From assembly GCF_000429325.1 (NCBI RefSeq), contig NZ_KE386886.1, positions 256,320-305,868 on the forward strand: DNA of 49,549 bases, in the 5' to 3' direction. The position numbers and the translations under genes are program-made. The stretch is from Fundidesulfovibrio putealis DSM 16056. Its GTDB lineage: Bacteria; Desulfobacterota; Desulfovibrionia; Desulfovibrionales; Desulfovibrionaceae. The notes below the pieces were generated by a model. That model worked only from the letters and a program-made list of their open reading frames with translations. It ran no database searches and had not been told where the DNA came from. Numbering within the stretch: position 1 is the stretch's first letter; every line of letters starts with the position of its first letter. Below are positions 15,404-49,500 of this stretch, piece by piece.

Positions 15404-16384
15404 ATGCCCTCAAGGATTCGCATCGTCATCTCGGCCCTGGCCGTCATTCTCGCGGTCTGGTCCGGCGGCCCGGCACAGGCCGAGGCCCTGAAAAAGGCCT
15501 CGCTCATCCCCCAGTGGGAGCCCCAGGCCCAGTTCGCCGGGTACTACGTGGCCAAAGCCAAGGGGTTCTACGAGAAGCGCGGCGTGGACATGGACATCCT
15601 GCGCGGCGGTCCGTCCAGCCCGCCCTCGAAGCTGCTGGCCGAGGGCAAGGCCCTGTTCGGGACCATGTTCCTGGCCTCCGCCGTCATGGAGCGCTCCAAA
15701 GGCCTTGAGCTGGTCAATCTGGCCCAGGTGATGCGCGGGTCCACCTTCCTGCTGGTGGCGCGAAAATCGGGCAACATAACCCGGCCCAAAGATTTCAACG
15801 GCAAGCGGGTCAGCCTGTGGGGCAAGGAATTCAGCCTCCAGGCCGAGGAGTTCTTCAAGAACGCCGGGGTGCAGGTGCAGCGGCTGCCCCAGGGCTTCAC
15901 GGTGGACCTCTTCCTGCGGGGCGGGGTGGATGTCGTCTCCGCCATGTATTACAATGAATACCACGTGCTGCTGAACTCCGGGCTGGACCCGGAGGACCTG
16001 ACGCTTTTCCCCCTGCGCGACTACGGGCTCGACTACCCGGAAGACGGCATCTACTGCCTGGATTCCACGCTCAAGGCCGATCCGGAACTGTGCTCCGCCG
16101 TGGCTGACGCGAGCCTCGAGGGCTGGCGCTACGCCTTCGAGCACCCCGAGGAGGCCCTGGACATCGTGATGGGCCACGTGGAGGCGGCGCGGCTGCCCAC
16201 CAACCGCATGCACCAGAAATGGATGCTGGAGCGCCTGCGCGAGGCCATGCTGCCCACGGCGGGACGCCAGGGGCCGGGGCCGCTGCTGGCGGGCGAGTTC
16301 GAGGCCGTATCGCGGACCCTGGCCAAGGCCGGGCTGCTGCAAAATCCCGTGAGCTTCGAGGAGTTCCATGTCCCGCCCAGATAG
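15404..16384 (+). CDS. Periplasmic binding protein of the NMT1/THI5-like type
   Basis: 326-residue exported protein with a signal peptide ending around GGPAQA (residue 26). The mature part begins with the typical LIPQWEPQAQFAGYYVAKAKGFYEKRGVD of NMT1/SsuA-like solute receptors, followed by GGPSSPPSKLLAEGKALFGT. No ABC permease or ATPase gene is nearby. Instead the 3' end overlaps by 17 bp the start of a membrane-anchored phosphatase, so the protein may act as a ligand-sensing partner and not a transporter component; this is inference. The ribosome site is weak and the ligand unknown. Confidence 0.85.
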   Translation: MPSRIRIVISALAVILAVWSGGPAQAEALKKASLIPQWEPQAQFAGYYVAKAKGFYEKRGVDMDILRGGPSSPPSKLLAEGKALFGTMFLASAVMERSKGLELVNLAQVMRGSTFLLVARKSGNITRPKDFNGKRVSLWGKEFSLQAEEFFKNAGVQVQRLPQGFTVDLFLRGGVDVVSAMYYNEYHVLLNSGLDPEDLTLFPLRDYGLDYPEDGIYCLDSTLKADPELCSAVADASLEGWRYAFEHPEEALDIVMGHVEAARLPTNRMHQKWMLERLREAMLPTAGRQGPGPLLAGEFEAVSRTLAKAGLLQNPVSFEEFHVPPR

Positions 16385-18350
16385 CCAGTTCCAGGGGCGG
16401 GGCCTCGGCTTCAAGCTGTCCCTGTTGATCCTGACCTGCACCGCAGCCATCTTCCTGGCCGCTTTCGTCTATTCCCACTACTCCTCCAAGCAGACCCTGA
16501 TGAAAGAGGCCAGTGCGGACGCCGCCAACCTGACCCTGGCCAGCATCCGCAAGATCGAGACCACGCTGGCCTCGGTGGAGGAGGTTCCGGGATTCCTGGC
16601 CTTCACCTACGGCAAGGGAACGCCCACGCCGCTGGCCATCAAACAGGACCTCACGGGTTTCGTGCTCTTCAACCGCGCCGTGTTCGGGGCCTGCGTGGCC
16701 TACGCGCCCTATGCCTATTACGCCGGGACGCGCCTCTTCGCGCCCTATGCCTACAAGTCCGAAGGCAGGCTCGAATACATGCACCTGGGCGAGGAGTACG
16801 GCTACCCCACTGCCGACTGGTTCCTGATCCCCTCGGAGCTTGAGCGCCCGCTCTGGAGCGAACCCTACTTCGACGAAGGCGGCGGCGGAGCCGTCATGTG
16901 CACCTACAGCGTCCCGTTCCATCGCGACGAGGACGGACGCAGGCGCATGCTGGGCGTGGTCACGGCGGACATATCGCTGGAATGGCTGCGGGAGCTGGTG
17001 GGGCGCATCTCCATCTTCAAGTCCGGGTACGCCTTCCTGCTGAGCCGAAACGGCGTGTTCGTGTCCCACCCCCAGGACGCCTACATCATGCGCGAGAGCG
17101 TGTTCAGCCTGGCGGAGAAGGCCGCCAGCCCGGAGCTTCGGCGCATCGGGCAGGACATGATCAGGGGCGGCTCCGGCTTCGTGCGGCTGCCGGAGTTCGT
17201 GCTGGGAAAACCCGCCTGGCTCTCCTACGCCCAGGTGCGAAACGCCGGCTGGTCCATGGGGGTGGTGATCCCCGAGGATGAGCTCTTCGAGGACCTGGAC
17301 CGCCTCAAGCGCCAGGTGGTGGGCATCGGCCTGGGCGGCTTCGTGCTGCTTTTGCTGGTGATCATCCTGGTGTCCACCTCCATAACCCGGCCGCTCAAGA
17401 ATCTGGCCGGGCGCACGGCGGAGATCGCCAAGGGCAACCTGGACATCCCCCTGCCCGAGTCCAGATCCGGCGACGAGGTGGGCCAGCTGAGCCGCTCCTT
17501 CGAGGAGATGCGCCTGGCGCTTCGCGAGTACATCGCCAACCTCACCGAGACCACCAAGGCCAAGGAGCGCATGGAGTCCGAGCTGAAGATCGCCCGGACC
17601 ATCCAGATGAGCTTTTTGCCCAAGCGCTTCCCGCCCTTCCCGGACATCCGCCAGTTCGAGCTGCACGCGGCCCTGGACCCGGCCCTGGAGGTCGGCGGCG
17701 ACCTGTTCGACTTCTTCCTGCTGGAGGACGGGCGGCTCCTGTTCCTGGTGGGCGACGTGTCCGGCAAGGGCGTCCCGGCGGCGCTGTTCATGGCCGTGAC
17801 CAAGACCCTGGTCAAGGGAATCGCCGAGCTTGAGGACACGCCCGCAGCCATCCTGGACCGGGTGAGCCGGGAACTGCTGGTGGACAACGAGGCCATGCTC
17901 TTCGTGACCATGTTCCTGGGCATCATGGACTACAACACGGGCCAGCTGACCTACTCCAACGCCGGCCACAACCCGCCGGTGCTGCTGCGCGGCGGGCGCG
18001 CGGACTGGCTGCCCCTGCCCAGGGGGCTGTTCCTCGGGGTCATGGAGGACGCGGTCTACCGGAACATGACGATCACTCTGGAGAAGGACGACCGGCTGGT
18101 GGTCTACACCGACGGCGTCACCGAGGCGGTGGACGAATCCGGCGAACTCTACTCCAACCAGCGGCTCCTGGACGTGGTGTCCGGACTTTCGGCCCAGGGC
18201 GCGAAGCAGATGAGCGAGGCCCTGGTCGACTCAGTGTGCCGCTTTGCAGGAAACGCCCCCCAGGCGGACGACATCACGGTGCTGACGATCCACTACCTGG
18301 GCGGCGGCCCGGCTTCCACGTCTGCGAAGCCGAAAGGCGAGGACGCATAA
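16368..18350 (+). CDS. Membrane sensor Ser/Thr phosphatase: Cache-like domain, HAMP, SpoIIE/RsbU PP2C domain
   Basis: 660-residue protein: TM1 about 15-36, a large extracytoplasmic Cache-like domain (about 40-310), TM2 about 317-337, HAMP (about 338-390), a coiled linker, then a PP2C domain of the RsbU/SpoIIE type (about 425-645). Metal-binding motifs are present: EVGGD (Asp445), VGDVSGKGVPAAL (Asp463), NAGHNPP, YTDGVTEAVD and the final DDITVLT (Asp634/635). Such enzymes usually dephosphorylate an anti-sigma antagonist with a STAS fold; none is encoded nearby. GAGGAG precedes the ATG. The overlapping binding-protein gene suggests a shared signal. Confidence 0.93.
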   Translation: MSRPDSQFQGRGLGFKLSLLILTCTAAIFLAAFVYSHYSSKQTLMKEASADAANLTLASIRKIETTLASVEEVPGFLAFTYGKGTPTPLAIKQDLTGFVLFNRAVFGACVAYAPYAYYAGTRLFAPYAYKSEGRLEYMHLGEEYGYPTADWFLIPSELERPLWSEPYFDEGGGGAVMCTYSVPFHRDEDGRRRMLGVVTADISLEWLRELVGRISIFKSGYAFLLSRNGVFVSHPQDAYIMRESVFSLAEKAASPELRRIGQDMIRGGSGFVRLPEFVLGKPAWLSYAQVRNAGWSMGVVIPEDELFEDLDRLKRQVVGIGLGGFVLLLLVIILVSTSITRPLKNLAGRTAEIAKGNLDIPLPESRSGDEVGQLSRSFEEMRLALREYIANLTETTKAKERMESELKIARTIQMSFLPKRFPPFPDIRQFELHAALDPALEVGGDLFDFFLLEDGRLLFLVGDVSGKGVPAALFMAVTKTLVKGIAELEDTPAAILDRVSRELLVDNEAMLFVTMFLGIMDYNTGQLTYSNAGHNPPVLLRGGRADWLPLPRGLFLGVMEDAVYRNMTITLEKDDRLVVYTDGVTEAVDESGELYSNQRLLDVVSGLSAQGAKQMSEALVDSVCRFAGNAPQADDITVLTIHYLGGGPASTSAKPKGEDA

Positions 18351-29744: not shown

Positions 29745-30374
29745 TCAACGGCGGGTGCTGATGGCGAATTTGCGCAATTCCTTCATGCCGACCAGCCCCA
29801 GCTTCTCCATGAGGCGGCTGTAATACGTTTCCACGGTGCGGGTGCTGATGATGAACTCGCGCGCGATGTCCGCCGCAGAGTCCCCCTGGCCGAGCATGCG
29901 CAGTATCTGGCGCTCCCTCTCGCTGAGCTCCGCTTCGCGCGCTCCGTTGCCCTTGACGGCGCGCATGGCCAGGCTCTGGGCCGCCCTGGGGCTGATGAAA
30001 CGCCTTCCGGCCCGGACCTCCAGCACCCCGTGCAGCAGCACCTCCGCCATCTCGCGCTTGGTGATGTAGCCGCCTGCGCCGGAATCGAAGGCCAGGGCGA
30101 TGGTCTCCGGGTCCTCATACATGGAATAGACGAGCCCCGGGATATTGCGCGCCTTGAACGCATGGAGAAGCTCCAGGCCGCTGTCTTCGCCCAGGCTGAG
30201 GTCTATGATCGCGATGTCCGCTCCGGAGCCCTTCATCACGGCAAGAGCCTCGGACCGGCTTCCGGCCTCGGCGCATACCGTGTGCCCGTGCTGGCCCAGC
30301 AGCAGAGCCAGACCCTGGCGTACCGCCGGATGGTCGTCCACCAGCATGACGCGGGCTGCGTTGCGTTCGGTCAT
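29745..30374 (-). CDS. NarL/FixJ-family response regulator
   Basis: 209 residues. Receiver domain (about 8-122) with acidic pair DD at 13-14, phospho-acceptor Asp in IIDLSLGEDSGLELL near residue 57, and Lys in YITKREM near 106. The C-terminal LuxR-type helix-turn-helix (about 145-205) has LSERERQILRMLGQGDSAADIAREFIISTRTVETYYSRLMEKLG. The ATG overlaps the stop of the histidine kinase gene by four bases (ATGA), so the two proteins are a cognate pair made in coupled fashion. Targets are unknown; the exported-protein genes next door are candidates. Confidence 0.95.
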   Translation of the reverse strand: MTERNAARVMLVDDHPAVRQGLALLLGQHGHTVCAEAGSRSEALAVMKGSGADIAIIDLSLGEDSGLELLHAFKARNIPGLVYSMYEDPETIALAFDSGAGGYITKREMAEVLLHGVLEVRAGRRFISPRAAQSLAMRAVKGNGAREAELSERERQILRMLGQGDSAADIAREFIISTRTVETYYSRLMEKLGLVGMKELRKFAISTRR

Positions 30375-32395
30375 CCGGCGCTCTCCTGTGTTGATTCGGA
30401 CTTCTCAGCGGCGGTGCAGGCCACGGTGCAGGTCACGATGGTTCCCCCGTCTCCGGCGTCGTCTATGCGCAGATCCCCGCCGACCACTCCGGCGCGGTGG
30501 GCCATGATCTTGAGCCCAAGGCCGCCACGGGGCTTGTTTCCGGGCGCGATGCCGCAGCCGTCGTCGCGGATGGTCAGCCGGACGCCCCGCAGGTCCAGGC
30601 ACTCCAGGAACACGTCCACGCGGCTTGGCGCGGCGTGCTTGATGGCGTTGGCGATGCCCTCCTGCGCGATGCGGTAGAGCTGGGTCATGTGCTCGTTTTT
30701 GCATTGAGCGCACGGCAGATCTTGCCTGAACGTGATGGGAATTCCGCTGGACTCGCTGAAGCGCAGCGCCAGCTCCTCCAGGGACGAGGCCCCGCTCCCG
30801 GCCCTGTGCTCAACGGGCCAGAGCCCTCGCGACAAGTCGTAGGCGTGCCCCACCGTGTCATCGATCAGACTGGAGAGCTGGCGCACCTCCCGGGCGATGG
30901 TGTCCTCCGAGGGGATGCGATGCTCCAGCACGGAGCAGCGAAGGCGCGCGCCGGTCAACTGCTGGCACAGGCCGTCGTGGAGGTTGTGGCTCAGGCGGCG
31001 GCGTTCGTCGTCGCTTATGCTCACCACTTCGTGCTGGAGGCGGGCTCGTTCAGCCACCTCCCGCTCCAGGGCGATGTTCTTGCCTTCCAGTTGCGTGGAG
31101 AGTGTTTCCACCGTCGAAAATGCCAGGGAGAACCTTCGTGACAAGGCAAGCGCCTGAAAAAGAAGAAAGAAGAAGAGTCCGACCTGTATTTGGGAGCCTG
31201 TCTGGATGTAGCCGGTCTCGTCCAGCATGTCGTTTATGCCTGCCAGCCCCAGGATCACGAACCCTGCCAGCAAAAGGCGGGCGTTGTCCCGTTGGCGCGC
31301 GCACGCCAGGATGAGTTTGTAGACGCAGTAACATATCATTATCGACGCCGAAATGTAGTAGACCGGCAAAAGTTCCGTCAGGAGCAGCATCGGGCTAAAC
31401 ACTGTCAGCACAACAAACAGCACTGCCATGAATGAGCAATAGTGCCGTATGTTTTTGGGGAACTCGAAGGGGTAAAGAGAGCGGAAGAATTGATATCCGA
31501 TTGGTACAGTCAGCATCAGGCAGATGAAGGCTATCTTCTCCAAAACAACGCTTCCGCTAGCGCCCCAGAAAAGTCCGGAGACCCAGTCACTGGAGCTGGA
31601 GAAGAGCTGGTTGCCCAGCCACAGCAGGCAGTACAGGCCGAGATGCAACGGGGAACTGCTTTGGGGACGAAAACAGTAAAGGGCAATGTGGTACACGCCC
31701 ATCACCAGCAAAGCCCCGGCAAAGAACAGGGCCACGCCCCATTTGCGCGCCTGCAAAGCCTGAAGCGCGCTGGCCTGCCCGAAAAGGAGCGGGGAGGTTA
31801 TGCCGCCATCGCTGTAGGAAAAGTTCGACACGTGCAGCATGATCTCGATGGGGCGACCATCCGAAGGAAATTCAAAGAGCTTTACCGAAAAATCCGGGGT
31901 TTCCTCCTCAGGGCGCGTCCCGGCGATTCCGCTCCCACCCAGAAGGCGGCCATTCACATAGAGGCGATAGGCGGAGTTCACCTTGAAAACACGCAGCGCC
32001 AGCCGGTGTTCTCCCGGCCAGGGCAGCACGAGCAGGCGATAGGTGGCGAAACCAGTCGCGGCGGCTTCCAGCCCGTTTGCCGCAAGCCCCGACCATGCCG
32101 AGGGCAACGTGATCAGGCTTTCCGGCGAGGACGCACCAATCCCGACGGATTCCTGCTGACCGACGAACCGGCTCCAGGCAAATTCCCATTGGCCATCAAG
32201 CGCCACCACGGGGTTGCGTTCAAGGTCCGAAGCGCTCAGGTCGAGCACGCCGCCTCTCGCCGTCGGGGGCGCTCCGGTTTTCGCTTCGCATCCCAGGCAT
32301 AGGAGTGTCAGGCATAAGGCCAGAACGAGACGAAGAGAGGCGATACTGATCGCATGTGCACGGCTTCGGTGCTGCAGGCCTGCGGTGCGAACCAT
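30371..32395 (-). CDS. 7TMR-DISM sensor histidine kinase, HisKA_3 type
   Basis: About 674 residues. An N-terminal hydrophobic region ending LLCLGC looks like a lipoprotein or signal segment. An extracytoplasmic jelly-roll DISMED2-like domain (about 45-200) follows, with LDGQWEFAWSRF, then seven transmembrane helices (about 220-420) and a coiled linker. The HisKA_3 dimerisation domain has phospho-acceptor His473 in ERRRLSHNLHDGLCQQL, and the HATPase has EGIANAIKHA and RDDGCGIAPG. It pairs with the overlapping response regulator. The start at 32395 is uncertain: no strong ribosome site is present, and the frame stays open to 32626. Confidence 0.92.
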   Translation of the reverse strand: MVRTAGLQHRSRAHAISIASLRLVLALCLTLLCLGCEAKTGAPPTARGGVLDLSASDLERNPVVALDGQWEFAWSRFVGQQESVGIGASSPESLITLPSAWSGLAANGLEAAATGFATYRLLVLPWPGEHRLALRVFKVNSAYRLYVNGRLLGGSGIAGTRPEEETPDFSVKLFEFPSDGRPIEIMLHVSNFSYSDGGITSPLLFGQASALQALQARKWGVALFFAGALLVMGVYHIALYCFRPQSSSPLHLGLYCLLWLGNQLFSSSSDWVSGLFWGASGSVVLEKIAFICLMLTVPIGYQFFRSLYPFEFPKNIRHYCSFMAVLFVVLTVFSPMLLLTELLPVYYISASIMICYCVYKLILACARQRDNARLLLAGFVILGLAGINDMLDETGYIQTGSQIQVGLFFFLLFQALALSRRFSLAFSTVETLSTQLEGKNIALEREVAERARLQHEVVSISDDERRRLSHNLHDGLCQQLTGARLRCSVLEHRIPSEDTIAREVRQLSSLIDDTVGHAYDLSRGLWPVEHRAGSGASSLEELALRFSESSGIPITFRQDLPCAQCKNEHMTQLYRIAQEGIANAIKHAAPSRVDVFLECLDLRGVRLTIRDDGCGIAPGNKPRGGLGLKIMAHRAGVVGGDLRIDDAGDGGTIVTCTVACTAAEKSESTQESAG

Positions 32396-32787
32396 GGAAA
32401 ACAAATAGTTCCAGAAATTTGCATCGGTCAAGGGCCATTTCCAGCGCGAGCCAGCCCCCAAGAGGAGTTCCCTGAAAGATCGTCGGGCAGGCTGAGGGCG
32501 AAGAGGGAGGACAAACCCGTTTGCGGCTTCCGGGCTTACACCGGCCAGAGCCGCGCCAGCGCAATGCCCTCCTGCCCTGCTCCAGTCATACTTCACATCT
32601 CGCGCCGCAGAGGCTTGCGGCCTCATCGCGTTTGACGCCCCTGGATAACTCTCCTAAAATACACAAAATGATCAACTTCATGTCACTTCGCCTCTTCGAT
32701 CAATGGATGCCTGTGTTCCAGGCTGCCTGAACGGGGCTGAACGCATGGGGTGGCGGTTCGTGCCGCAGGAAAGCTGAAGGAGTCTTC
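32396..32787. other. Divergent intergenic region between the histidine kinase and the GNAT operon
   Basis: About 390 bases. The kinase reading frame continues upstream to 32626, but the added residues do not look like protein of any known kind. The AT-rich patch at about 32640-32690 is the likely site of divergent promoters. A strong GAAGGAG site marks the rightward gene at 32788. Confidence 0.4.
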
Positions 32788-33861
32788 ATGAACGTGACGA
32801 CGCAGGAGAGCCACAGCGAACGCATCGAGCGCATCAGGCGCAACTGGCGGGAGATCGAACCCGACCGCAAGTATGCAATCGGTCCGCTCAGGTCCGGAGA
32901 CGGACAGGGCATAGCCCAGCTCTTCTACTCCGTGTACGGCGACCGCTACCCCGTGGAAGACTACTACATCCCGGAGAGCATCGAGCGGCTCAACGCCGAA
33001 GGCGCGCTTCTCACGGTGGTGGCCCGCCTGGAATCCGGAGCCGTGGCCGGCCAGGGGGCCTATTACCAGAGCTCCCCGCCCAACAAGGCCCTCTTCGAGT
33101 TCGGGCAGCTGCTCATCGCGCCCGAATACCGCAACTCGCTCATGGTCGCCAAGATCCTCAAGGAAATGGACAGGCTGTCGCGCACCATGACCCAGGCCCA
33201 GGGTTTCTTCGGAGAGGCCGTGTGCACGCATCTGGTCACCCAGAAGCTCGTGGACAAGCAGGGGTACGCGGAGTGCGGTCTGGAGGTGTCCCTGATGCCT
33301 GCCGGGGCCTACGAGAAGGAAGGGGCCGGTTCCCAACGGGTCAGCTGCCTTCTGGGAGCGCGGGTGGACCGCGACCATCACATGCCGCTTCATCTGCCGG
33401 AGTGCTACCGTAAGGAGTTGGAACTCATCCTTCGCGGCTTCTCCCTGGATAGGGAGATCAGCTTCAGCGCCATGGACGCGCCTCTTGCAACTGAGAGTTC
33501 GTTCGACTCCCGCACGTTCGATTTCGCCTCGGTGGAGCGGGTGCAGGTGACGACCGTGGGGAGCGATTTCACCGATGTTGTCCGCACCCTCGACCAGGAC
33601 GCGAAACGCCGCAACATGGCCGTGGTCCAGGTGTTCGTGAACGCGGGCGGGCCAGGCGCGGCCTTCGCGGTGGAGGCCCTGCGCGCGCGGGGGTTCATCC
33701 TGGGCGGGCTTGTCCCGCTCTGGTTCGGCCCGGACGGAATCCTTATGCAGAAGATCTACGTGGAGCCGGAATTTGACGCCATCAACCTGTTCTCGGACAG
33801 GTCGAAGGCGCTCCTGGCCTTCATCCGTGCGGACTGGGACCGCGCGCGGAGCCTAGCGTGA
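32788..33861 (+). CDS. GNAT-like acyltransferase-fold protein, probably two tandem domains
   Basis: 357 residues. The first half (about 30-180) has GNAT traits: YAIGPLRSGDGQGIAQLF, VVARLESGAVAGQGAYY and FEFGQLLIAPEYRNSLMVAKIL, the last like an acetyl-CoA loop. The second half (about 245-357) has AVVQVFVNAGGPGAAFAVEAL, GFILGGLVPLWFGPDG and MQKIYVE, resembling a second GNAT-like domain. GAAGGAG lies ahead of the ATG. Its stop overlaps the GTG of the molybdenum hydroxylase gene (GTGA), so the proteins are co-translated. The same domain order recurs in the protein at 39845-41161. Substrate unknown. Confidence 0.8.
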   Translation: MNVTTQESHSERIERIRRNWREIEPDRKYAIGPLRSGDGQGIAQLFYSVYGDRYPVEDYYIPESIERLNAEGALLTVVARLESGAVAGQGAYYQSSPPNKALFEFGQLLIAPEYRNSLMVAKILKEMDRLSRTMTQAQGFFGEAVCTHLVTQKLVDKQGYAECGLEVSLMPAGAYEKEGAGSQRVSCLLGARVDRDHHMPLHLPECYRKELELILRGFSLDREISFSAMDAPLATESSFDSRTFDFASVERVQVTTVGSDFTDVVRTLDQDAKRRNMAVVQVFVNAGGPGAAFAVEALRARGFILGGLVPLWFGPDGILMQKIYVEPEFDAINLFSDRSKALLAFIRADWDRARSLA

Positions 33862-36149
33862 TTTCCACGACACCCCCCGGCGACCCGTTCCAGCACCGAG
33901 ACGCCTTGTCCAAGGCCGTGGGAGCCGAACGCTTCAGCACGGACTTCAGCCCGCCCGGATGCCTCTGGGCCGGGGCCAGACGCGCGGGCGTGCCCCACGC
34001 CAGGATCAAGGCCGTGCACACCGAAGAGGCCCGCGCCGTGGACGGCGTGACGGCGGTGCTCACCGGGGCGGACGTGCCCGGCTCCAACCTGCAGGGCATC
34101 GTCCACAAGGACCAGCCCGTGCTGGCCACGGACACGGTGCGCCACGCGGGCGACGCGGTGGCCCTGGCGGTGGCCGAGAGCCGCGAAGCCCTGGCCGAGG
34201 CATTGGCGCTCATTCGTGTTGATCTCGAGCCGCTGCCCGGCGTGTTCGACCCGGAGCTGGCCCTGGCCCCGGACGCGCCCCTGGTCCACGCAGGCCGGGA
34301 AGGGGGCAACCTGTTGGCCCGTGGGCTTGTTCACAAGGGCGACGCCCGCAAGGCCATGAACTCATGCGACGTGGTGGTGGAGGGCGAGTTCGAGACCCCC
34401 ATGCAGGAGCATGTCTTCCTGGAACCGCCGAGCGGCGCGGCCAGGATGACCGCCAAAGGCGGCCTGGAGATGGTGGCGTCCACGCAGGCCCCGTTTCGCG
34501 ACCGCTTCGAGATCGCCCACGCCCTGGACCTGAACCCCATGAGCATCCGGGTGCGTGCCCCCTACCTGGGCGGCGCGTTCGGCGGCAAGGACGGGGCCAC
34601 GGTGCAGTGCCTGCTGGCCTTGGCTGCGCTGAAAAGCGACGGGCAGTGGGTGAAGATGTGCTGGAGCCGCGAGGAGACCTTCCTGGCCGGGTACAAGCGT
34701 CACGCGGCGCGCATGCGGGTGCGGCTCGGGGCCTCCCGCCGGGGCGAATTGCAGGCCCTGGACTGCTCCATGTATTTTGACTCCGGCCCCTACGCCCACC
34801 TTGCCGTGGAGATCATGGCGCTCGGCCTTGAGCACGCAGGCGGGCCGTACCGCATCCCGCACACCCGCATGGAAGGTTTCTGCGTCTACACCAACAACCC
34901 CGTGGGCGGGGCCTTCCGGGGGTTCGGCGTGGTGCAGGCCAGCTTCGCCATCGAGCGGAGCATGGACGCCCTGGCCGCGCGGCTCGGCCTGGACCCCGCA
35001 GAGCTGCGCCTGAAGAACGCCCTGCGCACCGGCGAGCTCAACTGCGCGGGCGTGGCCATGCAGTCCCCCTCGGGCGCGGTGGAATGCCTGGAGGCGATGA
35101 TGGCCCACCCCGTATGGGCGGACAGGAGTAACTGGAAAGCGAAAGCGCCGCCGTTCAAGCGCCGGGGCGTGGGCATCGCCGCGTCGCTGAACGCCATGGG
35201 CTACGGGCGCGGCCTGCCGGACGCGGCTGCGGCAAAGCTTGAGCTCACGCGGGAAGGAAACTTCAAAATATTCAACTCCGTGCCGGACATGGGCCAGGGC
35301 AATGCTCCGGCTTTCGTCCAGCTGGCGGCCACGGCCCTGAACCAGGAGGCCTCGCGCTTCGAGGTGGTCCAGCCGGACACACGGCTGTGCCTGCCCGCCG
35401 GGTCGTCCTCGGCCAGCCGCACCACGTACACTTTCGGCAACGCGCTGCTCAAAGCCTGCGAGGCCATGCGCGAGAAGCTCAAGGCGCGCGCGGCCCTGGC
35501 CCTGCTGGCGGACGAGCCGTCCCGGCTGCGCCTCGCGCCGGGGATGGTCGTGGACGACGCCACGGGGCGCTCGGTCCCTCTGGCCATGCTTGGGGCCATG
35601 CTCCAGCGCGACGACCGCATCTGCGTGGACCAGTGCGTGATGCCCGTGGTGGAGAATCCGCCGGATACCGGCAAGGAGTTCCGGCTGGGCTTTCCGCATA
35701 GGTTCTTCGCCCACGGGGCCTGCGTCTGCGCGGTGGAGGCCGATGAGCTCACCGGGCAAGTGGCGCTTCTGGAGTGCGTCACTGCCGTGGAGTGTGGCAA
35801 GGTGCTGAGCGCCCAGGGCGTAGAGCGCCAGGTGCAGGGCGCAGCGGCCCAGGGCGCAGGGTTTGCGCTCATGGAGAATCTTTCGACCGAGGCCGGGCAC
35901 ATCCTGACGGGCGACCTGTCCACGTATCTGATCCCCACCGCGCTGGACCTGCCCGGCCTGGAGTGGGTGTCCGTGGACGGGGACGAGCCCACCGGCCCGC
36001 ACGGGCTCAAGGGGATGGGGGAAGTGGGCATCCACGGGCCTGCGCCCGCAGTGGCCCAGGCCCTGGAAGACGCCGTGGGGCTTGCGATCCGCCGCGTCCC
36101 AGTGGAACCGGAGGACGTATTGCGGGCGATGAGGGGCGAAAACGCATGA
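33858..36149 (+). CDS. Molybdenum hydroxylase large (Mo-pterin) subunit, xanthine dehydrogenase family
   Basis: 763 residues, normal for separate Mo subunits. The N-terminal a/b-hammerhead domain (about 15-130) is followed by the cofactor domain with PYLGGAFGGKDGATVQ near 237, NPVGGAFRGFGVVQ, and the catalytic glutamate Glu722 in LKGMGEVGIHGP. Enzymes of this family hydroxylate purines, other N-heterocycles, aldehydes or CO. There is no CoxL-type AYXCSFR motif, so CO is unlikely; the real substrate is unknown. The GTG start overlaps the GNAT stop, and the stop overlaps the next ATG. No XdhC or molybdopterin maturation gene lies in the window. Confidence 0.92.
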   Translation: MISTTPPGDPFQHRDALSKAVGAERFSTDFSPPGCLWAGARRAGVPHARIKAVHTEEARAVDGVTAVLTGADVPGSNLQGIVHKDQPVLATDTVRHAGDAVALAVAESREALAEALALIRVDLEPLPGVFDPELALAPDAPLVHAGREGGNLLARGLVHKGDARKAMNSCDVVVEGEFETPMQEHVFLEPPSGAARMTAKGGLEMVASTQAPFRDRFEIAHALDLNPMSIRVRAPYLGGAFGGKDGATVQCLLALAALKSDGQWVKMCWSREETFLAGYKRHAARMRVRLGASRRGELQALDCSMYFDSGPYAHLAVEIMALGLEHAGGPYRIPHTRMEGFCVYTNNPVGGAFRGFGVVQASFAIERSMDALAARLGLDPAELRLKNALRTGELNCAGVAMQSPSGAVECLEAMMAHPVWADRSNWKAKAPPFKRRGVGIAASLNAMGYGRGLPDAAAAKLELTREGNFKIFNSVPDMGQGNAPAFVQLAATALNQEASRFEVVQPDTRLCLPAGSSSASRTTYTFGNALLKACEAMREKLKARAALALLADEPSRLRLAPGMVVDDATGRSVPLAMLGAMLQRDDRICVDQCVMPVVENPPDTGKEFRLGFPHRFFAHGACVCAVEADELTGQVALLECVTAVECGKVLSAQGVERQVQGAAAQGAGFALMENLSTEAGHILTGDLSTYLIPTALDLPGLEWVSVDGDEPTGPHGLKGMGEVGIHGPAPAVAQALEDAVGLAIRRVPVEPEDVLRAMRGENA

Positions 36150-36631
36150 GCACAGACATCACGGTGACGTTCACCTTGAACGAGGCGCGGGTCAGCATCG
36201 AAACGAGCCCCGGCAGGCGGGTTCTGGACCTGCTGCGGGGCGACCTGGGCCTGACGGCGGCGAAGGAAGGCTGCGGCTCGGGCGAGTGCGGCGCGTGCTC
36301 CATCCTGGTGGACGGCGTCGCCAAGCTCTCCTGCCTGATGCTGGTTGCGCAGCTGGAAGGCCGCGAGGTGGTCACGGCGGAGGGGCTGGGCACGGTGGAG
36401 CATCCGCATCCCATCCAGCAGGCGTTCGCACAGCACGGAGCCGTGCAGTGCGGGTACTGCACGCCGGGCATGACCATCGCCTCGGCGGAACTGCTCGCCC
36501 GGACTTCCTCCCCGGACCGGGCGCAAGTGCGCGAGGCCATCTCCGGCAACCTGTGCCGCTGCACGGGGTACGTAAAGATCGTGGACGCGGTGATGGCGGC
36601 TGCCGGGGCCGCGCGCGGGGAGGACTCGTGA
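36146..36631 (+). CDS. Molybdenum hydroxylase small subunit with two 2Fe-2S clusters
   Basis: 161 residues. The plant-ferredoxin-type cluster ligands are Cys43, Cys48, Cys51 (CGSGECGAC) and Cys63. The second, helical-domain cluster uses Cys102 and Cys105 (CGYC) and Cys137 and Cys139 (CRC). It passes electrons from the Mo centre to the FAD subunit. Its ATG overlaps the large-subunit stop and its own stop overlaps the GTG of the FAD subunit. Confidence 0.96.
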   Translation: MSTDITVTFTLNEARVSIETSPGRRVLDLLRGDLGLTAAKEGCGSGECGACSILVDGVAKLSCLMLVAQLEGREVVTAEGLGTVEHPHPIQQAFAQHGAVQCGYCTPGMTIASAELLARTSSPDRAQVREAISGNLCRCTGYVKIVDAVMAAAGAARGEDS

Positions 36632-37452
36632 GCGCTGGCGTGTTTTGTCCGAGCAGTCTTGATGAGCTGTGGCCGCTTCTGGAAGACGGGGCCACAGTGA
36701 TGGCCGGAGGCACGGACCTCCTGGCCCGGCGCCGCGGGAAGGCTCCCGATTTCGTGGCCTGCCTGGAGCGGCTAGGGGGCCTGTACGGCGTCAGCGAGGA
36801 CGCGGGGCTCATCCGCCTGGGAGCCTGCGAGACCCACACGCGCCTGCTGCAAAGCCCCCTGGTGCGGGAGCGTTTGCCCGCGCTGGCCTCGGCGCTTTCC
36901 GTGCTCGGTTCGCCGCTGGTGCGCAACATGGGCACGCTCGGCGGCAACATCGTCACTGCCTCGCCCGCAGGGGACACCCTTGCGCCTCTCTACGCGCTGG
37001 ATGCGCAGGTGGAGCTTGCCTCAAAACAGGGAAAGCGCCGGATTCCCCTGGCCGGGTTCATCACGGGGCCAGGGCGGGTCGAGCTTCAACCGGGCGAGAT
37101 CGTGTCAGCGGTGATTGTTTCACCGCCGGACGCTTCGGCGCTCCAGCACTTCGAGAAGGTTGGCCGCCGCAAGGCGCTGGCCATCTCGGTGGTCAGTCTG
37201 GCTGCGGTGATACGTATGGAGTCTGGCGGAGTGGTCACGGACGCGCGGCTGGCGCTGGGCAGCGTCGGCCCTACGATAGTCCGCTGTCCGGGGGCTGAAG
37301 CGCTGCTGGCCGGACGACGCTTAGAGCGCGAGACTCTGCTGGCCGTCGGGCAGCTCATCCGGGAAGAAATTGCACCCATCGACGACCTGCGGGCATCGGC
37401 GGCCTACCGCCGGGACGTGGCCGGGAACCTGCTGCTAAGGCTGGCCCCGTAA
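36628..37452 (+). CDS. Molybdenum hydroxylase medium (FAD) subunit
   Basis: 274 residues. FAD-binding motifs are AGGTDLLARRR (about 29-39) and LGGNIVTASPAGDTLAPLYAL (about 107-127). The C-terminal CO_deh_flav_C-like domain (about 165-270) contains FEKVGRRKALAISVVSLAAVI. It accepts electrons from the 2Fe-2S subunit and passes them to an unknown acceptor. The GTG start overlaps the preceding stop (GTGA), so the whole four-gene set is coupled. Confidence 0.94.
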   Translation: MSAGVFCPSSLDELWPLLEDGATVMAGGTDLLARRRGKAPDFVACLERLGGLYGVSEDAGLIRLGACETHTRLLQSPLVRERLPALASALSVLGSPLVRNMGTLGGNIVTASPAGDTLAPLYALDAQVELASKQGKRRIPLAGFITGPGRVELQPGEIVSAVIVSPPDASALQHFEKVGRRKALAISVVSLAAVIRMESGGVVTDARLALGSVGPTIVRCPGAEALLAGRRLERETLLAVGQLIREEIAPIDDLRASAAYRRDVAGNLLLRLAP

Positions 37453-37473
37453 TCCTGCCCTGTATGGGATTCC

Positions 37474-37494
37474 AAAGGGCGCAGCCCTTTGGCC
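37474..37494. terminator. Shared hairpin between convergent operons
   Basis: CCAAAGGGC (37474-37482) and GCCCTTTGG (37486-37494) form a perfect nine-pair stem with loop GCA, 22 bp after the FAD subunit stop and 25 bp beyond the MFS stop. It lacks a long T-run in either direction, so it may be a weak two-way terminator or a dispersed intergenic repeat. Confidence 0.55.
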
Positions 37495-37519
37495 GCCGGA
37501 GGCTCTCCTGCGTCAGCTT

Positions 37520-38755
37520 TTAGTGCCTCGTCGAAGATACCTCGACCGCCCTTCTCCTCTTCCATTCCCTGACCGCCAGCGGCGCGACCAGCGCCGCCGC
37601 CGCGCAGGCGCACCCGGCGCTCGCGACAAACAGCGACGGGAATCCCCCGGCCCCGGCGAGCAGCGCTCCCCCCGCCAGGGGGCCGAGCGTGTATCCGGCG
37701 TCCATCATGAACAGCATCAGGTTCATGTTCATGGGGCGAAGCGCGGGCGGCGACTCAAGGAACATGGCCGCGTTCAGGAGCGGCATGGCGATGCCCAGGC
37801 AGAATCCGTAGGCTCCGGCCAGCCAGAAGAAAGACGCCTCGCCGCCTGCGCAGGCGAACAGGGCCATGCAGGCGCATAGCGCCAGGAGCGCCAGCACGGC
37901 CAGACCCCGCCTGGGCAGCCTGTCCACGTACGGCCCGGACACGAGGCGCGCCGCGATGGACGCCGCAGTGGACACCGTGAAGAACAATCCCGGCTCGCCG
38001 ATCCCCAGGGACACCGCGTAGGGCTTTACGAAGAAGAACACCTGCGTGGAGCCCGCGAACACCAAGAGGTTCGCCGCCAGCAGCAGAACGATGGGGTGGC
38101 GGCTCAGGTTCTCCCGCAGTTCGCGCAGGGTAGGCCGCCGCGTTTCGGCAGGCGGGAACGCGCTGCGCCCCAGGCGAGCCCCCAGCGGCATGAGCATGGC
38201 AAGCGAAGGCAGCGTCAGGAGGGCGGTCCAGGCGTAGGCCTGGGCTTCTCCGCCGACGCGCGAGAGCAGCCACTCGGTCAGCGGAGGCATGAGCGCATAG
38301 GGCACCAGCGACGACAGGGAAAACAGGCCGAAGGCCCGCCCGGCAAAGCGCGGAGGCACCACTTTGGAAAGAAGCGTCACCACCGCGCTCACCAGACAGA
38401 CGAAGGCCAGCCCGTGGAAGATGCGCACTGCAAGAAGTTCGGGGATGGTGGCCGCGAACTGGTAGCTGGGCAGGGCAACGCCGATGGCCGCGAGGGAAAG
38501 ACGCGCCAGGGTCAGCGCCTGACGGGGGGTGAGCCAGACGCTCAAAAACGGCCGCACCAGAAAGGCGGCCAGCGGCTCGGCCGCGATGATGGTGCCGCGC
38601 CAGGCCGGGTCCACGCCGAGCTTTTCCAGGTAGCTGGCCAGACCGTAGAACACGGCGATGTTGCAGAACCCCAGGCCCGCCGCCAGGGTGAGCACCAGGA
38701 AATCATACGTGAACAGGCGCTCGGGCCTGTCCGTGTCCGGCGCGCCCGGGCTCAC
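37520..38755 (-). CDS. Major facilitator superfamily transporter
   Basis: 411 residues with twelve hydrophobic segments in two six-helix halves. The central loop is near TRRPTLRELRENLSRHP. Family traits include RIFHGLAFVCLVSAVVTLLSKVVPPRFAGRAFG and the C-terminal NMNLMLFMMDAGYTLGPLAGGALL. It may export a product or import a substrate of the neighbouring enzymes. The start is a GTG at 38755 overlapping the aminotransferase stop (GTGA), the same coupling used in the facing operon; no better ATG exists in frame before the first helix. Confidence 0.9.
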   Translation of the reverse strand: MSPGAPDTDRPERLFTYDFLVLTLAAGLGFCNIAVFYGLASYLEKLGVDPAWRGTIIAAEPLAAFLVRPFLSVWLTPRQALTLARLSLAAIGVALPSYQFAATIPELLAVRIFHGLAFVCLVSAVVTLLSKVVPPRFAGRAFGLFSLSSLVPYALMPPLTEWLLSRVGGEAQAYAWTALLTLPSLAMLMPLGARLGRSAFPPAETRRPTLRELRENLSRHPIVLLLAANLLVFAGSTQVFFFVKPYAVSLGIGEPGLFFTVSTAASIAARLVSGPYVDRLPRRGLAVLALLALCACMALFACAGGEASFFWLAGAYGFCLGIAMPLLNAAMFLESPPALRPMNMNLMLFMMDAGYTLGPLAGGALLAGAGGFPSLFVASAGCACAAAALVAPLAVREWKRRRAVEVSSTRH

Positions 38756-39861
38756 CGCTTGTCCAGGCTGCTGCGCAGGGCCTTGGCGAAGGCTTCCATG
38801 GCGGGTTCGCGCGCCAGCGTGACCCTGATCCAGTTGGGGAAACGAAACCCGGTCATGGTGCGGATCATGACGCCCTGCTTCATGAGCAGGCGGTAGAGCA
38901 GCGTGTCCGGGATGGGCACGCGGGCCATGATGAAGTTGCCCGCCCCCGAGACGTGCTCGAGACCCAGCGAGTCGAACACGGATTTCAGGTACTCCCCGGC
39001 CTGGGCGACCATGCGCCGGGTTGCCGCCGCGTGCGTCCCGTCGTCCTCCAGGGCCGCCTTGGCCGCAAGCTGGCCCAGCGAGTTGACCGAGTAGACAAGA
39101 TGCGTGCGCCTGACGATGTCCACGGCTTCCAGGCCGCCGCACAGGTAGCCCACCCGGAGGGCGGCCAGCCCGTACATCTTGGAGAAGGTCCGGAAGACCA
39201 GCACGTTGGGGTGGCGCTCCATCACCTCCATGCCGTCCGGGAAGTCCGGGTCGTCCACGAACTCCCGGTAGGCCTCGTCCAGCACCACGATGGCCCGCCC
39301 GCCGACGGCCCGCAGGAAGCGCTCCAGGGTGTCCCTGCTCCACCACGACCCCGTGGGGTTGTTGGGGTTGCACACGAACACCACCTTGGTCCTGCCGGTC
39401 ATGGCCGCGAGCATGGCCTGCGGGTCCAGGGCGTAGTCCTTGAGCGGCACGAGGCGGGGCTCGATGCCGGAGAACGCCGCCACCCACTCGTAGACCGCGA
39501 AGGTCTTGTCCGCCGTGACGATGTTGTCGCCGGGCTGGCAGAAGGCCTTGATGACTGAGGTGATCACCTCGCAGGAGCCGTTGCCCACCAGGAAGCGATC
39601 AGGAGCCTTGCCGAAGGCGTCGCTCAGGGCCTGGCGCAGGAAGAAGCAGTCGCCGCTTGGGTAGACCGCGCCCCGCTCGGGCGGGAACGCGGCCAGCACC
39701 TCCTGCGCGGCGGGCGGCGGGCCGAGGGCGTTCTCGTTGTTGTTCAGGCGGTAGAGCCGCTCCACGCCGTACTGGCGCATGAGGACGTCGTCCGGGCGGC
39801 TGGGGACGTAGCTCTCGAAGTTCAGGACGTGGGTGGGGACGAGATCAGCGAGCTGGCGCAT
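38752..39861 (-). CDS. Class I/II PLP aminotransferase, histidinol-phosphate aminotransferase-like
   Basis: 369 residues. PLP-binding features: VGNGSCEVI near 92-100, CNPNNPTGSWW near 164, VVLDEAYREF near 192-201, and the Schiff-base Lys228 in FRTFSKMYGLAALRVG. The C-terminal Arg region is RFPNWIRVTLA. It looks like HisC, but the setting (an MFS transporter and a GNAT-HATPase protein, no his genes) argues for another substrate. Its 5' end overlaps the upstream gene by 17 bp and its stop overlaps the MFS start. Confidence 0.9.
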   Translation of the reverse strand: MRQLADLVPTHVLNFESYVPSRPDDVLMRQYGVERLYRLNNNENALGPPPAAQEVLAAFPPERGAVYPSGDCFFLRQALSDAFGKAPDRFLVGNGSCEVITSVIKAFCQPGDNIVTADKTFAVYEWVAAFSGIEPRLVPLKDYALDPQAMLAAMTGRTKVVFVCNPNNPTGSWWSRDTLERFLRAVGGRAIVVLDEAYREFVDDPDFPDGMEVMERHPNVLVFRTFSKMYGLAALRVGYLCGGLEAVDIVRRTHLVYSVNSLGQLAAKAALEDDGTHAAATRRMVAQAGEYLKSVFDSLGLEHVSGAGNFIMARVPIPDTLLYRLLMKQGVMIRTMTGFRFPNWIRVTLAREPAMEAFAKALRSSLDKR

Positions 39862-41161
39862 ACTGGAACACCGCCACGTCCGAGCGGCCCGCGAAGGGGA
39901 GGACCAGCCTGGGTTTGAATCCGGCGTCCATGACCGGCCCGGCCAGGGAGGCTTCCCAGGCCTGGGACAGGTCCATGTACAGCAGAATGTTCAGAAAGCC
40001 CTTGTCCGACAGCACGCGGACATGCCCGGCGAGGTTGGCGGCCATGTCCTCACCGTCCAGCAGGGGGCGCAGCACGGCCAGACCCTTGCCCTTGTCCATG
40101 GTGGTGGAGAAGAGCGAGCTCTTGCGCTCACTGGGGCCTGAGGCCCCGAACGGCTGCGCCGCGAGCACGTCCCTGCACATGGCCAGACGGTCGTAGACGC
40201 CGCGCAGGAAGCCCTCCAGGGCCGGGTCGGCCCACACGGTCTCGCCCATGTCCTCGCGCAGGTGGCGGTAGAGCACGGGCTGCTCGCTCTGCCCCGCCTC
40301 GTCGTAGCGCGTCAGCGTCCCCAAGGTCTCGAAGTATCCGTCCGGAGTATCCTGCGTGGCCCTCTCGCTGAACACGATCTCAATCTTTTCGCGGGCCACT
40401 GTCGCCAGGAACGCGTCCGCGAGCATCCGGGCCACCTGGGGAGCGTCCTCCTGCGGGGCGAAAACAAACGGCCCGGAAAAGGAAAGCCCCTTCTCCCCGG
40501 ACCTGGCCCAGCAGAGAAGCCCCGCGGGATGGGAAGCTTCGTCCAGGGCCAGCACACAGGTGAACTGGCCCGCCCTGACAAGGTCCGCGAACTTGCCGGG
40601 GGTCTGGAAGCTGGCCGGACAATGCCAGGCGGGATAGCGGGCCGCTGCCAGCGCGGCGGCGTGCATGAGCCGGTTCGGGTCGTGCTCCAGGCCAGCCCGG
40701 TAGGGAGGCTTGAAGGTGACGGTTGAAGGCGGGGCCTTGGCCGCCGGATAGGCCTTGTCCACCTCGGCGTGCAGCGTGAAGGAGGATTCTCCGTCGCGGG
40801 TGAGGCGAAAACGGTCCGCCACGCGTCCGGCCAGGATGAGCCCCAGATCATTCGCGGCCTCACCGGCTCCGTCCAGGGAGGTGGTGCAGCTGGCGTTGAG
40901 CGCGCCCAGGCAGAGCCCGGAGGCCTGGAACTGGAGGGACGCGCACACCTGATAGGGCTTTCCCGTGAGCACCGTCTGTATCGCGCAGTCCTCGTGGGCC
41001 ACCTGGGCCAGGTAGGTGAAGAACTCCTCCACCGCCAACTGGAAGCGCATGCTCTCGCGCTTGCCCAGGCCGCGCGACTGCGCAAGCGCCTCGGCCGCCG
41101 TGGTCAGGACGCGTGCGAAAGCGACGTCTGGGGGCGTCGTGAGCGAGAGGATGGTGTCCAT
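39845..41161 (-). CDS. HATPase (anti-sigma/RsbW-like) domain fused to tandem GNAT-like domains
   Basis: 438 residues. The first 135 or so resemble an HATPase_c_2 domain of the RsbW class: GLGKRESMRFQLAVEEFFTYLA carries the N-box-like ExxxN region, altered here to EEFFTYL, and a later LGLILAGRVADRF is a weak G-box candidate. The remaining 300 residues parallel the GNAT protein at 32788-33861, including a final FLNILLYMDLSQAWEASL and AGFKPRLVLPF. Start ATG at 41161 with GAGG upstream. First gene of the leftward operon, next to the tRNA-Leu remnant. Kinase activity is doubtful from sequence. Confidence 0.72.
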   Translation of the reverse strand: MDTILSLTTPPDVAFARVLTTAAEALAQSRGLGKRESMRFQLAVEEFFTYLAQVAHEDCAIQTVLTGKPYQVCASLQFQASGLCLGALNASCTTSLDGAGEAANDLGLILAGRVADRFRLTRDGESSFTLHAEVDKAYPAAKAPPSTVTFKPPYRAGLEHDPNRLMHAAALAAARYPAWHCPASFQTPGKFADLVRAGQFTCVLALDEASHPAGLLCWARSGEKGLSFSGPFVFAPQEDAPQVARMLADAFLATVAREKIEIVFSERATQDTPDGYFETLGTLTRYDEAGQSEQPVLYRHLREDMGETVWADPALEGFLRGVYDRLAMCRDVLAAQPFGASGPSERKSSLFSTTMDKGKGLAVLRPLLDGEDMAANLAGHVRVLSDKGFLNILLYMDLSQAWEASLAGPVMDAGFKPRLVLPFAGRSDVAVFQYAPAR

Positions 41162-41219
41162 CAATGATCCTCGTTTCCCTGATTTATGGAATCTGCAATC
41201 AAACCGCCGGTGAGTGGAG

Positions 41220-41275
41220 CAAAATCAGAGCAAAAAAGCAAACAGGCCGATTTCCCGCAGCAAGAAATCGGCCTG
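41220..41275 (-). terminator. Terminator of the tRNA-Leu locus
   Basis: CAGGCCGATTTC (41243-41254) and GAAATCGGCCTG (41264-41275) form a perfect twelve-pair stem with a nine-base loop. The minus strand then reads TTTGCTTTTTTG. It lies just past the tRNA 3' end at 41290. A near-identical hairpin sits at 49411-49443. Confidence 0.85.
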
Positions 41276-41286
41276 GCATATTGAAA

Positions 41287-41332
41287 TCATGGTGCCCGAG
41301 GCCGGACTCGAACCGGCACGACCCTTTCGGAT
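41287..41332. repeat. Left attachment site: 46-bp direct repeat containing the tRNA-Leu 3' end
   Basis: Identical over 46 bases to 49455-49500. On the minus strand it encodes the end of the variable arm, the T-arm (GCCGGTTCGAGTCCGGC), the acceptor strand and CCA. Beyond 41332 the tRNA sequence stops. This is the distal boundary of the integrated island. Confidence 0.92.
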
Positions 41333-41407
41333 AGAGTTGCTTAACTAGCTGGAATAGTGACAATTTATCAACAATCCACCACCAGCAGCCAAATATTGTC
41401 AGGTGGT

Positions 41408-41437
41408 TGCATGTTCATGAATATTCATGAACATGCA
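41408..41437. repeat. 30-bp perfect palindrome near the left attachment site
   Basis: Perfect dyad symmetry about 41422/41423. It contains TTCATGAA twice (41414-41421 and 41424-41431), ten bases apart, so on the same face of the helix. It lies 76 bp inside the left repeat, a position used by arm-type recombinase or excisionase sites. Confidence 0.9.
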
Positions 41438-49355: not shown

Positions 49356-49400
49356 TATTGCTCCACTCTTCTCGGAAGCAGGTGGGGCAACATTGGAACC

Positions 49401-49443
49401 AAAAGTCAAATAGGCCAATTTCTCATTGCAAGAAATTGGCCTA
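49401..49443 (-). terminator. Second copy of the tRNA-Leu terminator hairpin
   Basis: TAGGCCAATTTC (49411-49422) and GAAATTGGCCTA (49432-49443) form a twelve-pair stem with a nine-base loop. The hairpin is the same as that at 41243-41275 with compensating changes. T-rich minus-strand sequence follows. Confidence 0.75.
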
Positions 49444-49454
49444 ACATGTTGAAT

Positions 49455-49500
49455 TCATGGTGCCCGAGGCCGGACTCGAACCGGCACGACCCTTTCGGAT
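49455..49500. repeat. Right attachment site: 46-bp direct repeat
   Basis: Perfect copy of 41287-41332. It marks the integrase-proximal end of the island; unlike the left copy, tRNA-Leu similarity continues past it to about 49514. Confidence 0.92.

Follow-up and report, generated by a model that had tools for sequence, protein, structure and literature searches.

In RsbW-type HATPase kinases, the N-box asparagine binds Mg-ATP. GNAT acyltransferases that use acyl carrier protein (ACP) include the LuxI-type acyl-homoserine lactone synthases and FeeM. Nicotinate dehydrogenase and 4-hydroxybenzoyl-CoA reductase are catabolic enzymes. We analyzed a 49,549-nucleotide stretch of the Fundidesulfovibrio putealis DSM 16056 genome (NCBI RefSeq assembly GCF_000429325.1, contig NZ_KE386886.1, positions 256,320 to 305,868 of the forward strand; hereafter ‘the window’), in which seven genes in two facing operons (positions 32788-41161, Table 1) encode, among others, proteins related to these families. 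One operon encodes P0001, a putatively GNAT-type protein, and the molybdopterin (MoCo), iron-sulfur (FeS) and FAD subunits of a molybdenum enzyme. The other encodes P0002, which combines a degenerate HATPase domain with a diverged GNAT-like half, an aminotransferase (P0006) and an MFS transporter (P0007). It is near certain that the two operons are halves of one conserved gene set, and they very probably share one role, because the genes co-occur almost perfectly and form single co-directional clusters elsewhere.

P0002 and the aminotransferase are hardly ever found apart. Among 395 genomes of the phylum, compiled by hand and not phylogenetically independent, 47 encode a strong P0002 match and 46 the system aminotransferase, all inside those 47 (46 both, one P0002 only, none aminotransferase only, 348 neither). 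P0001 is found in 49 genomes and shares 44 with P0002 (three P0002 only, five P0001 only, 343 neither). The P0002-bearing genomes are spread over 19 families of the phylum sample. For P0002, these counts use a cut-off of 240 bits, which falls in a wide gap between scores of 241 and 38; for P0001, the same value separates scores of 241 and 214, the lower scores falling mostly in frames of about 500 amino acids. The aminotransferase was counted at the search threshold of E ≤ 1e-120, which places weaker homologs outside the count. Within the window’s own family (119 genomes), 48 genomes have a P0001 match, proteins of the bridging family described below included, and 34 have a P0002 match.

The aminotransferase gene lies directly downstream of P0002 in 32/32 family loci (window excluded), 9/9 named loci and 37/40 phylum loci. 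The phylum loci represent 40 of the 47 strong P0002 genomes; G000, G029 and G088 were already covered, and G130, G314, G365 and G467 were left out. Two of the three phylum loci with no adjacent aminotransferase (L256 and L274) lie near contig ends, and the genome of the third (L247) encodes it on another contig; the L274 genome (G202) has no aminotransferase at threshold. The named loci come from a scan of named genomes with an aminotransferase alignment, in which the best 80 of 595 confirmed relatives were followed. Nine of these 80 have at least 58% identity and all adjoin P0002, and P0002 was not found in the fetched DNA around the remaining 71 (at most 41% identity). The nine are metagenome-assembled genomes assigned to uncultured delta-proteobacteria (two), Thermodesulfobacteriota (one), ‘Proteobacteria’ (two), Desulfarculus, Desulfobacteraceae, Acidobacteria and Rhodoferax, the last two of which may be binning errors. 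One uncultured delta-proteobacterial locus (L122) and family locus L077 share a single contig.

Gene order varies between lineages. Co-directional clusters that run from P0002 and the aminotransferase into the MoCo, FeS and sometimes FAD genes are present at five of eight named loci and 19 of 40 phylum loci (L124 and L277 being one contig present in both sets), and at none of the 32 family loci. Both the MFS and P0001 genes fall within the same stretch in 4/5 of the named and 12/19 of the phylum clusters. A convergent order is present at 12 of 32 family loci and two of 40 phylum loci. The first-pass annotation had proposed that both operons serve a single pathway, and conserved co-location over many genomes is indeed what we find.

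L099 and L101 each contain two P0001-like genes about 1.3 kb apart and no other core genes in the stretch. In an Anaerolineae locus (L168), FAD, FeS and MoCo genes directly precede a HisC-like aminotransferase gene in a stretch with neither P0001 nor P0002. In genome G088, a P0001 homolog appears to be split into two frames (L072, 6542-7548).

Comparison of family profiles relates P0001 to P0002. A single-sequence BLASTP of the two proteins detects no similarity (best E 2.8). Profiles of the two families (27 and 22 members, respectively) align colinearly over 248 columns (probability 96.3, E 1.8e-9), matching P0001 57-323 to P0002 183-432 with both halves in order. The first-pass annotation had claimed that the two proteins are similar and had paired a VQVFVNAGGPG module with an LNILLYMDLSQ module; the profile alignment reproduces this pairing, setting VQVFVNAGGPG...GFILGGLVPLWFG of P0001 against ILLYMDLSQ...GFKPRLVLPFAG of P0002. 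In half-by-half profiles built from larger sets, the C-terminal halves match with E 8.6e-11 and the N-terminal halves weakly (probability 59, E 9e-5), and crossed N- and C-terminal halves of P0001 and P0002 give no profile match. Each N-terminal half clearly matches that of a third, ‘bridging’ family (P0001 E 4.6e-39, P0002 E 6e-11). At the level of sequence, these comparisons establish P0001 and P0002 as paralogs with a common, putatively GNAT-derived half and C-terminal module.

The bridging family (20 members of about 500 residues) combines an intact RsbW-type HATPase domain, a GNAT domain and the C-terminal module. The P0001 profile matches 20/20 of its members, partly by construction as they were picked via P0001 matches, and the P0002 profile matches 19/20 at varied strength. 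Pfam finds HATPase_c_2 in all 20 and GNAT in 14. Against solved structures, the first part of the bridging profile is nearest RsbW (PDB 6m36, E 4.3e-22) and the middle part is matched by GNAT chains. The predicted common plan is HATPase, GNAT and C-terminal module, because of these Pfam matches and solved relatives.

Taken singly, P0001 and P0002 are less informative. P0001 has no meaningful Pfam match and reaches no GNAT model, and neither protein finds anything useful in the PDB. Acetyltransf_1 is reached by 11 of the 27 P0001-family members (best 1e-7), and the P0001-family profile has weak GNAT matches in the PDB (best 0.038). The GNAT label for P0001 is putative and based on Pfam matches of family and bridging members together with the solved GNAT structures that match the bridging N-terminal half. 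P0002 matches HATPase_c_2 below threshold (17.1 bits against a cut-off of 27.4), and nine of 22 family members reach this model at E ≤ 0.01; the bridging-family comparison supports a HATPase origin for the P0002 N-terminal domain. The C-terminal module (about 150 residues) resembles nothing that we could name, and a match of its P0001-family version to the designed protein SAKe6FE (1.8e-5) is regarded as chance. It is not detectably a second GNAT domain, as the N- and C-terminal halves do not match each other within any of the three families by profile comparison. The ‘tandem GNAT’ architecture read at first pass is putative for the N-terminal half, through family and bridging matches, and finds no support by sequence for the second.

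It is very improbable that the two operons are unrelated neighbors brought together by chance. Such an accident would fit the lack of direct BLASTP similarity and the separation of P0001-MoCo from P0002-aminotransferase clusters in some genera of the family (for example, L094-L098 versus L074, L076, L078 and L079), but it is already contradicted by co-occurrence at 44/47 and 46/47 in the 395 genomes, by single clusters in other families and by profile homology.

We aligned 81 P0002-family rows (79 distinct) and 70 P0001-family rows (68 distinct). In the HATPase-region alignment, the N-box asparagine is present in 0/81 P0002-family rows, 17/20 bridging-family rows and 24/24 stand-alone RsbW rows. 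The P0002 family also has few of the aligned glycines of the G1 box (4/81) and of the G2 box at position 105 (2/81), and has Gly107 in 71/81; Glu45, Glu46 and Asn89 are retained in 80/81. The P0002 HATPase domain is predicted to be a conserved pseudo-ATPase, unable to work like an RsbW kinase, because the ATPase asparagine is missing in every row examined. The RsbW-like domain recognized at first pass is therefore upheld in its descent, by family comparison, and not as a working kinase. In the P0001 family, Glu104, Gly106 and Gln152 are present in 70/70 rows and Arg115 in 69/70. Gln152 belongs to a conserved GEAVCxHxxTQK segment that also contains His148 (64/70) and Cys146 (63/70).

Among the remaining genes, Pfam identifies a molybdenum hydroxylase of three subunits, an aminotransferase of class I/II (Aminotran_1_2) and an MFS transporter. 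P0006 scores 271.4 bits against TIGR01141 (hisC) and so misses its cut-off of 276.55; because a different locus of the window genome exceeds that value (315.3 bits), we rejected a housekeeping HisC function for P0006. Its nearest solved relative is a putative phenylalanine aminotransferase (PDB 4r2n), and its clade at E ≤ 1e-120 is confined to P0002 genomes (46/46). Aminotransferase residues including Lys228, which we take from its motif to be the catalytic lysine, are invariant in 22 rows. The molybdenum enzyme has features of the xanthine dehydrogenase superfamily, including MoCoBD domains, a glutamate at the catalytic position and two [2Fe-2S] clusters. Glu722 of the MoCo subunit, presumably the catalytic glutamate by its motif, is conserved in 21/22 rows (a gap in one), and the eight cysteines of the FeS subunit are kept in 20/20 rows. 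Among solved structures, the MoCo subunit is closest to nicotinate dehydrogenase and 4-hydroxybenzoyl-CoA reductase. The enzyme reaches none of the listed NCBIfam cut-offs, that of the xanthine dehydrogenase equivalog included (best pucD, 541.6 of 783.65). Because catalytic residues are kept, the aminotransferase and molybdenum enzyme likely catalyze real chemistry.

Relatives of P0001 are associated with an ACP and a ligase. In four of five fetched same-genus relatives (L062, L063, L065 and L067; not L064), and also in L066, the P0001 ortholog starts with an acyl carrier domain, which in L062 matches PF00550; in other loci the carrier is encoded as a separate gene. An AMP-ligase gene precedes carrier-bearing P0001 in L062, L063, L065, L066 and L067, and the L062 ligase is nearest, among solved structures, to benzoate-CoA ligase (PDB 2v7b, E 4e-106) and anthranilate-CoA ligase. 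Among 60 loci with P0001, 16 contain the ligase, and all 16 also contain a serine-bearing ACP (15 by script pattern and L269, with GLDSMD, by eye). The ligase of these relatives is thus probably an acyl-ACP ligase. Among the 44 ligase-less loci, the serine motif occurs only in L070, in a 21-residue fragment, and a serine-less carrier-like domain is recognizable by sight in four (L068, L069, L070 and L075). L071, which has the ligase, has both a serine-bearing carrier and a serine-less domain on P0001.

Several observations bear on the apparent loss of this pair. L064 has no ligase gene; 26 residues of the ligase C-terminus remain just upstream of P0001, whose start looks like a shortened carrier remnant. 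P0001 of the window begins with MNVTT followed by a linker, as after an in-frame deletion. We considered relocation of the ligase or ACP elsewhere in the window genome, and no close copy was found; both were apparently deleted in this lineage. Given the 16/16 pairing, the remnants in L064 and the absence from the window genome, the ligase and carrier seem to travel together and to be lost together, with P0001 retained.

As a tentative reading, to which we give slightly less than an even chance, the two operons form one conserved seven-gene small-molecule pathway that combines transamination, molybdenum-enzyme oxidation, acyl transfer and MFS transport. The HisC-like aminotransferase and molybdenum enzyme would make or oxidize an aromatic or heterocyclic amine or aldehyde intermediate. 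P0001 would acylate that amine from a thioester, the acyl group having ancestrally been aryl-like and attached to a carrier; in lineages that lost ligase and carrier, the donor would have to be CoA or a different carrier, unless P0001 works in another way. P0002 would be a non-ATPase partner of the aminotransferase, as its tight coupling to that enzyme suggests a complex of the two. The MFS protein would move the substrate or product.

We prefer a biosynthetic direction, and this is a preference: the data do not separate biosynthesis from catabolism. A catabolic module is rather unlikely. In it, the MFS protein would import an amine-bearing aromatic or heterocycle, the aminotransferase would convert this to an aldehyde or oxo compound for oxidation by the molybdenum enzyme, the ligase (where present) would activate the resulting acid and the GNAT-like proteins would be auxiliary. 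The solved relatives of the MoCo subunit are consistent with such a route, as are the benzoate-CoA-ligase-like ligase and the neighboring NMT1-type binding protein and Cache-SpoIIE sensor, which would suit ligand-induced uptake. Recurrent neighbors within 68 stretches (two contigs being included twice) are a branched-chain-type ABC ATPase (12), an acyl-CoA-synthetase-like protein (5), response-regulator-type proteins (18) and a GDSL hydrolase (6), all but the last recognized by eye; the first two would also fit catabolism. The presence of ACP with the ligase at 16/16 loci is better explained by biosynthesis, and P0001 and P0002, kept together in 44/47 genomes, have no evident catabolic role. 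Ring-cleavage genes were not recognized by eye in the 30 largest neighbor clusters, most of which lay outside the Pfam search.

Sensor-type genes accompany the P0002 cluster in some relatives. Within 40 phylum stretches we identified STAS in 14, RsbW in 13, SpoIIE in 13 and NMT1 in 10; the corresponding counts in 32 family stretches are 3, 6, 6 and 6. One of the 20 bridging-family genes (L121) lies near STAS/RsbW/SpoIIE/NMT1 genes. The SpoIIE protein of the window is by a wide margin the best match in its genome to the operon-linked SpoIIE of a relative (549.8 bits versus 98.4). At a cut-off of 420 bits (424 then 350), SpoIIE homologs are found in 41/47 P0002 genomes versus 18/348 others and are thus associated with the system, not exclusive to it. 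In the pathway reading, ligand sensing and control of the system would probably fall to the Cache-SpoIIE phosphatase and NMT1-like protein, joined in some relatives by STAS and RsbW. Beside P0001, the window also encodes a 7TMR-DISM sensor kinase and a LuxR-type regulator (29745-32626, minus strand); a similar pair adjoins the system only in L071 among 40 loci searched.

These genes also bear on an unlikely alternative, in which neither P0001 nor P0002 is catalytic and both would serve as regulators or scaffolds, with P0002 retaining an RsbW-like surface and a SpoIIE/STAS/RsbW module gating the aminotransferase through P0002. The P0002 family lacks the N-box asparagine throughout yet keeps Glu45, Glu46 and Asn89, its GNAT-like half matches no Pfam GNAT model, and its gene overlaps that of the aminotransferase in the window and is nearly inseparable from it elsewhere, all of which would suit a regulator, as would the sensor-type genes of the phylum stretches. 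However, the conserved GEAVCxHxxTQK segment and the ACP partner in some relatives suggest catalysis, at least for P0001, and the window contains no STAS gene. More improbable still is a scheme in which partner switching directly controls an enzyme complex and no sigma factor takes part: P0002, a pseudo-RsbW with an acyltransferase-like body, would clamp the aminotransferase, Cache-SpoIIE would read a ligand via the NMT1-like protein, and STAS phosphorylation would set the carrier/GNAT pathway.

Several points weigh against the seven-gene acyl-transfer pathway. All of its chemistry is inferred from family resemblance. The cofactor-loop motif Q/R-x-x-G-x-G/A, which we take to be that of GNAT enzymes, is mostly lost in the P0001 family: the glycine following Arg115 is kept in 20/70 rows (12/20 in the bridging family), with leucine in the window protein, and P0001 may for this reason not be an ordinary acyltransferase. 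The P0002 half is more diverged still, with 0/22 members reaching a Pfam GNAT model. The window genome has no close ligase (best-scoring match 31% identical) and no close ACP homolog (weak matches, best E 0.009). With the ligase missing from 44/60 P0001 loci and neither protein found in the window genome, ligase and ACP are not essential. Three of the 395 genomes have P0002 with no P0001, and five the reverse. MoCo genes lie within the stretch at only 16/32 family, 7/9 named and 27/40 phylum loci, some being cut by contig ends. As for the sensor genes, 14 kb separate the SpoIIE/NMT1 pair of the window from the operons, neither a STAS nor an RsbW gene was detected in the window, and 18 genomes with no P0002 have SpoIIE homologs.

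The gene coordinates, the facing arrangement and the tight stop-start overlaps reported at first pass are all confirmed. Adjacent genes overlap by 4 bp at P0001/MoCo (33858-33861), MoCo/FeS (36146-36149), FeS/FAD (36628-36631) and aminotransferase/MFS (38752-38755), and by 17 bp at P0002/aminotransferase (39845-39861). The operons converge on a 67-bp gap (37453-37519) containing a hairpin with no T run, a possible terminator common to both. No RNA family reaches its gathering score in the window.

Table 1. Positions of the core genes and associated features, numbered from the first nucleotide of the window.
Feature	Coordinates	Strand	Description
P0001	32788..33861	+	GNAT-type half and conserved C-terminal module (putative); N-terminal acyl carrier domain of most same-genus relatives missing
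Molybdopterin (MoCo) subunit	33858..36149	+	Xanthine dehydrogenase / 4-hydroxybenzoyl-CoA reductase / nicotinate dehydrogenase-like
2x[2Fe-2S] (FeS) subunit	36146..36631	+	
FAD subunit	36628..37452	+	
Hairpin CCAAAGGGC-GCA-GCCCTTTGG	37472..37492	.	Read by eye; inside the convergent gap
P0007, MFS transporter	37520..38755	-	
P0006, HisC-like pyridoxal phosphate aminotransferase	38752..39861	-	System-specific clade
P0002	39845..41161	-	Degenerate RsbW-type HATPase, diverged GNAT-like half and C-terminal module (putative)
NMT1/THI5-like solute-binding protein	15404..16384	+	Homologs adjoin the P0002 operon in some relatives; membership here putative
PDC/Cache-HAMP-SpoIIE phosphatase	16368..18350	+	Homologs adjoin the P0002 operon in some relatives; membership here putative

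Upstream of P0002, about 8 kb lie between the two copies of a 119-nt direct repeat (84% identical, 41214-41332 and 49382-49500), with a phage-type integrase gene at one end (48348-49418, minus strand). Because the left repeat copy contains an apparent tRNA 3' end with CCA, the region just upstream of P0002 is probably the end of an integrated element that targets a tRNA gene. ARAGORN calls a 97-nt tRNA-Trp overlapping the repeat (41290-41386, minus strand), which could be spurious or the remnant of a gene. Some 250 bp upstream of P0002, a perfect 30-bp palindrome (41408-41437) overlaps a promoter-like site. We rejected it as a conserved P0002 operator, as the 450 bp preceding P0002 in 14 relatives do not contain it; it is perhaps part of the integrated element.

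The tight linkage of the core pair across 19 families of one phylum sample makes it a promising way into uncharted metabolism of anaerobes. These analyses also define a HATPase-GNAT-C-module protein family that occurs in three forms: with an intact HATPase domain, with a pseudo-ATPase domain, or with no HATPase domain, the last form including some members that have an acyl carrier domain. Each enzyme family is already known; we found no description of the gene combination or of the pseudo-HATPase-GNAT family in the open-access literature, most subscription papers lying outside this search.

Relative to described systems, P0002 resembles the RsbW/SpoIIAB anti-sigma kinases (HATPase_c_2) in that its N-terminal domain aligns to the bridging domain that matches RsbW. 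It differs in the missing N-box asparagine, the mostly lost G1 and G2 glycines and the fusion to GNAT-like and C-terminal modules. The P0001 family is tentatively linked to GNAT acyltransferases by the members that reach Acetyltransf_1 and by the fused or adjacent ACP of some relatives, and is set apart by its own C-terminal module and mostly lost cofactor-loop motif. The ligase of relatives is close to benzoate-CoA ligase but stands beside an ACP at all 16 loci that have it and has no close copy in the window genome. The molybdenum enzyme shares three separate subunits, the glutamate and eight FeS cysteines with xanthine dehydrogenase, 4-hydroxybenzoyl-CoA reductase and nicotinate dehydrogenase, but lies under every listed NCBIfam cut-off. 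Finally, P0006 resembles histidinol-phosphate and aromatic aminotransferases in its TIGR01141 score and its proximity to 4r2n, but falls below the hisC cut-off and belongs to a clade found only in P0002 genomes.

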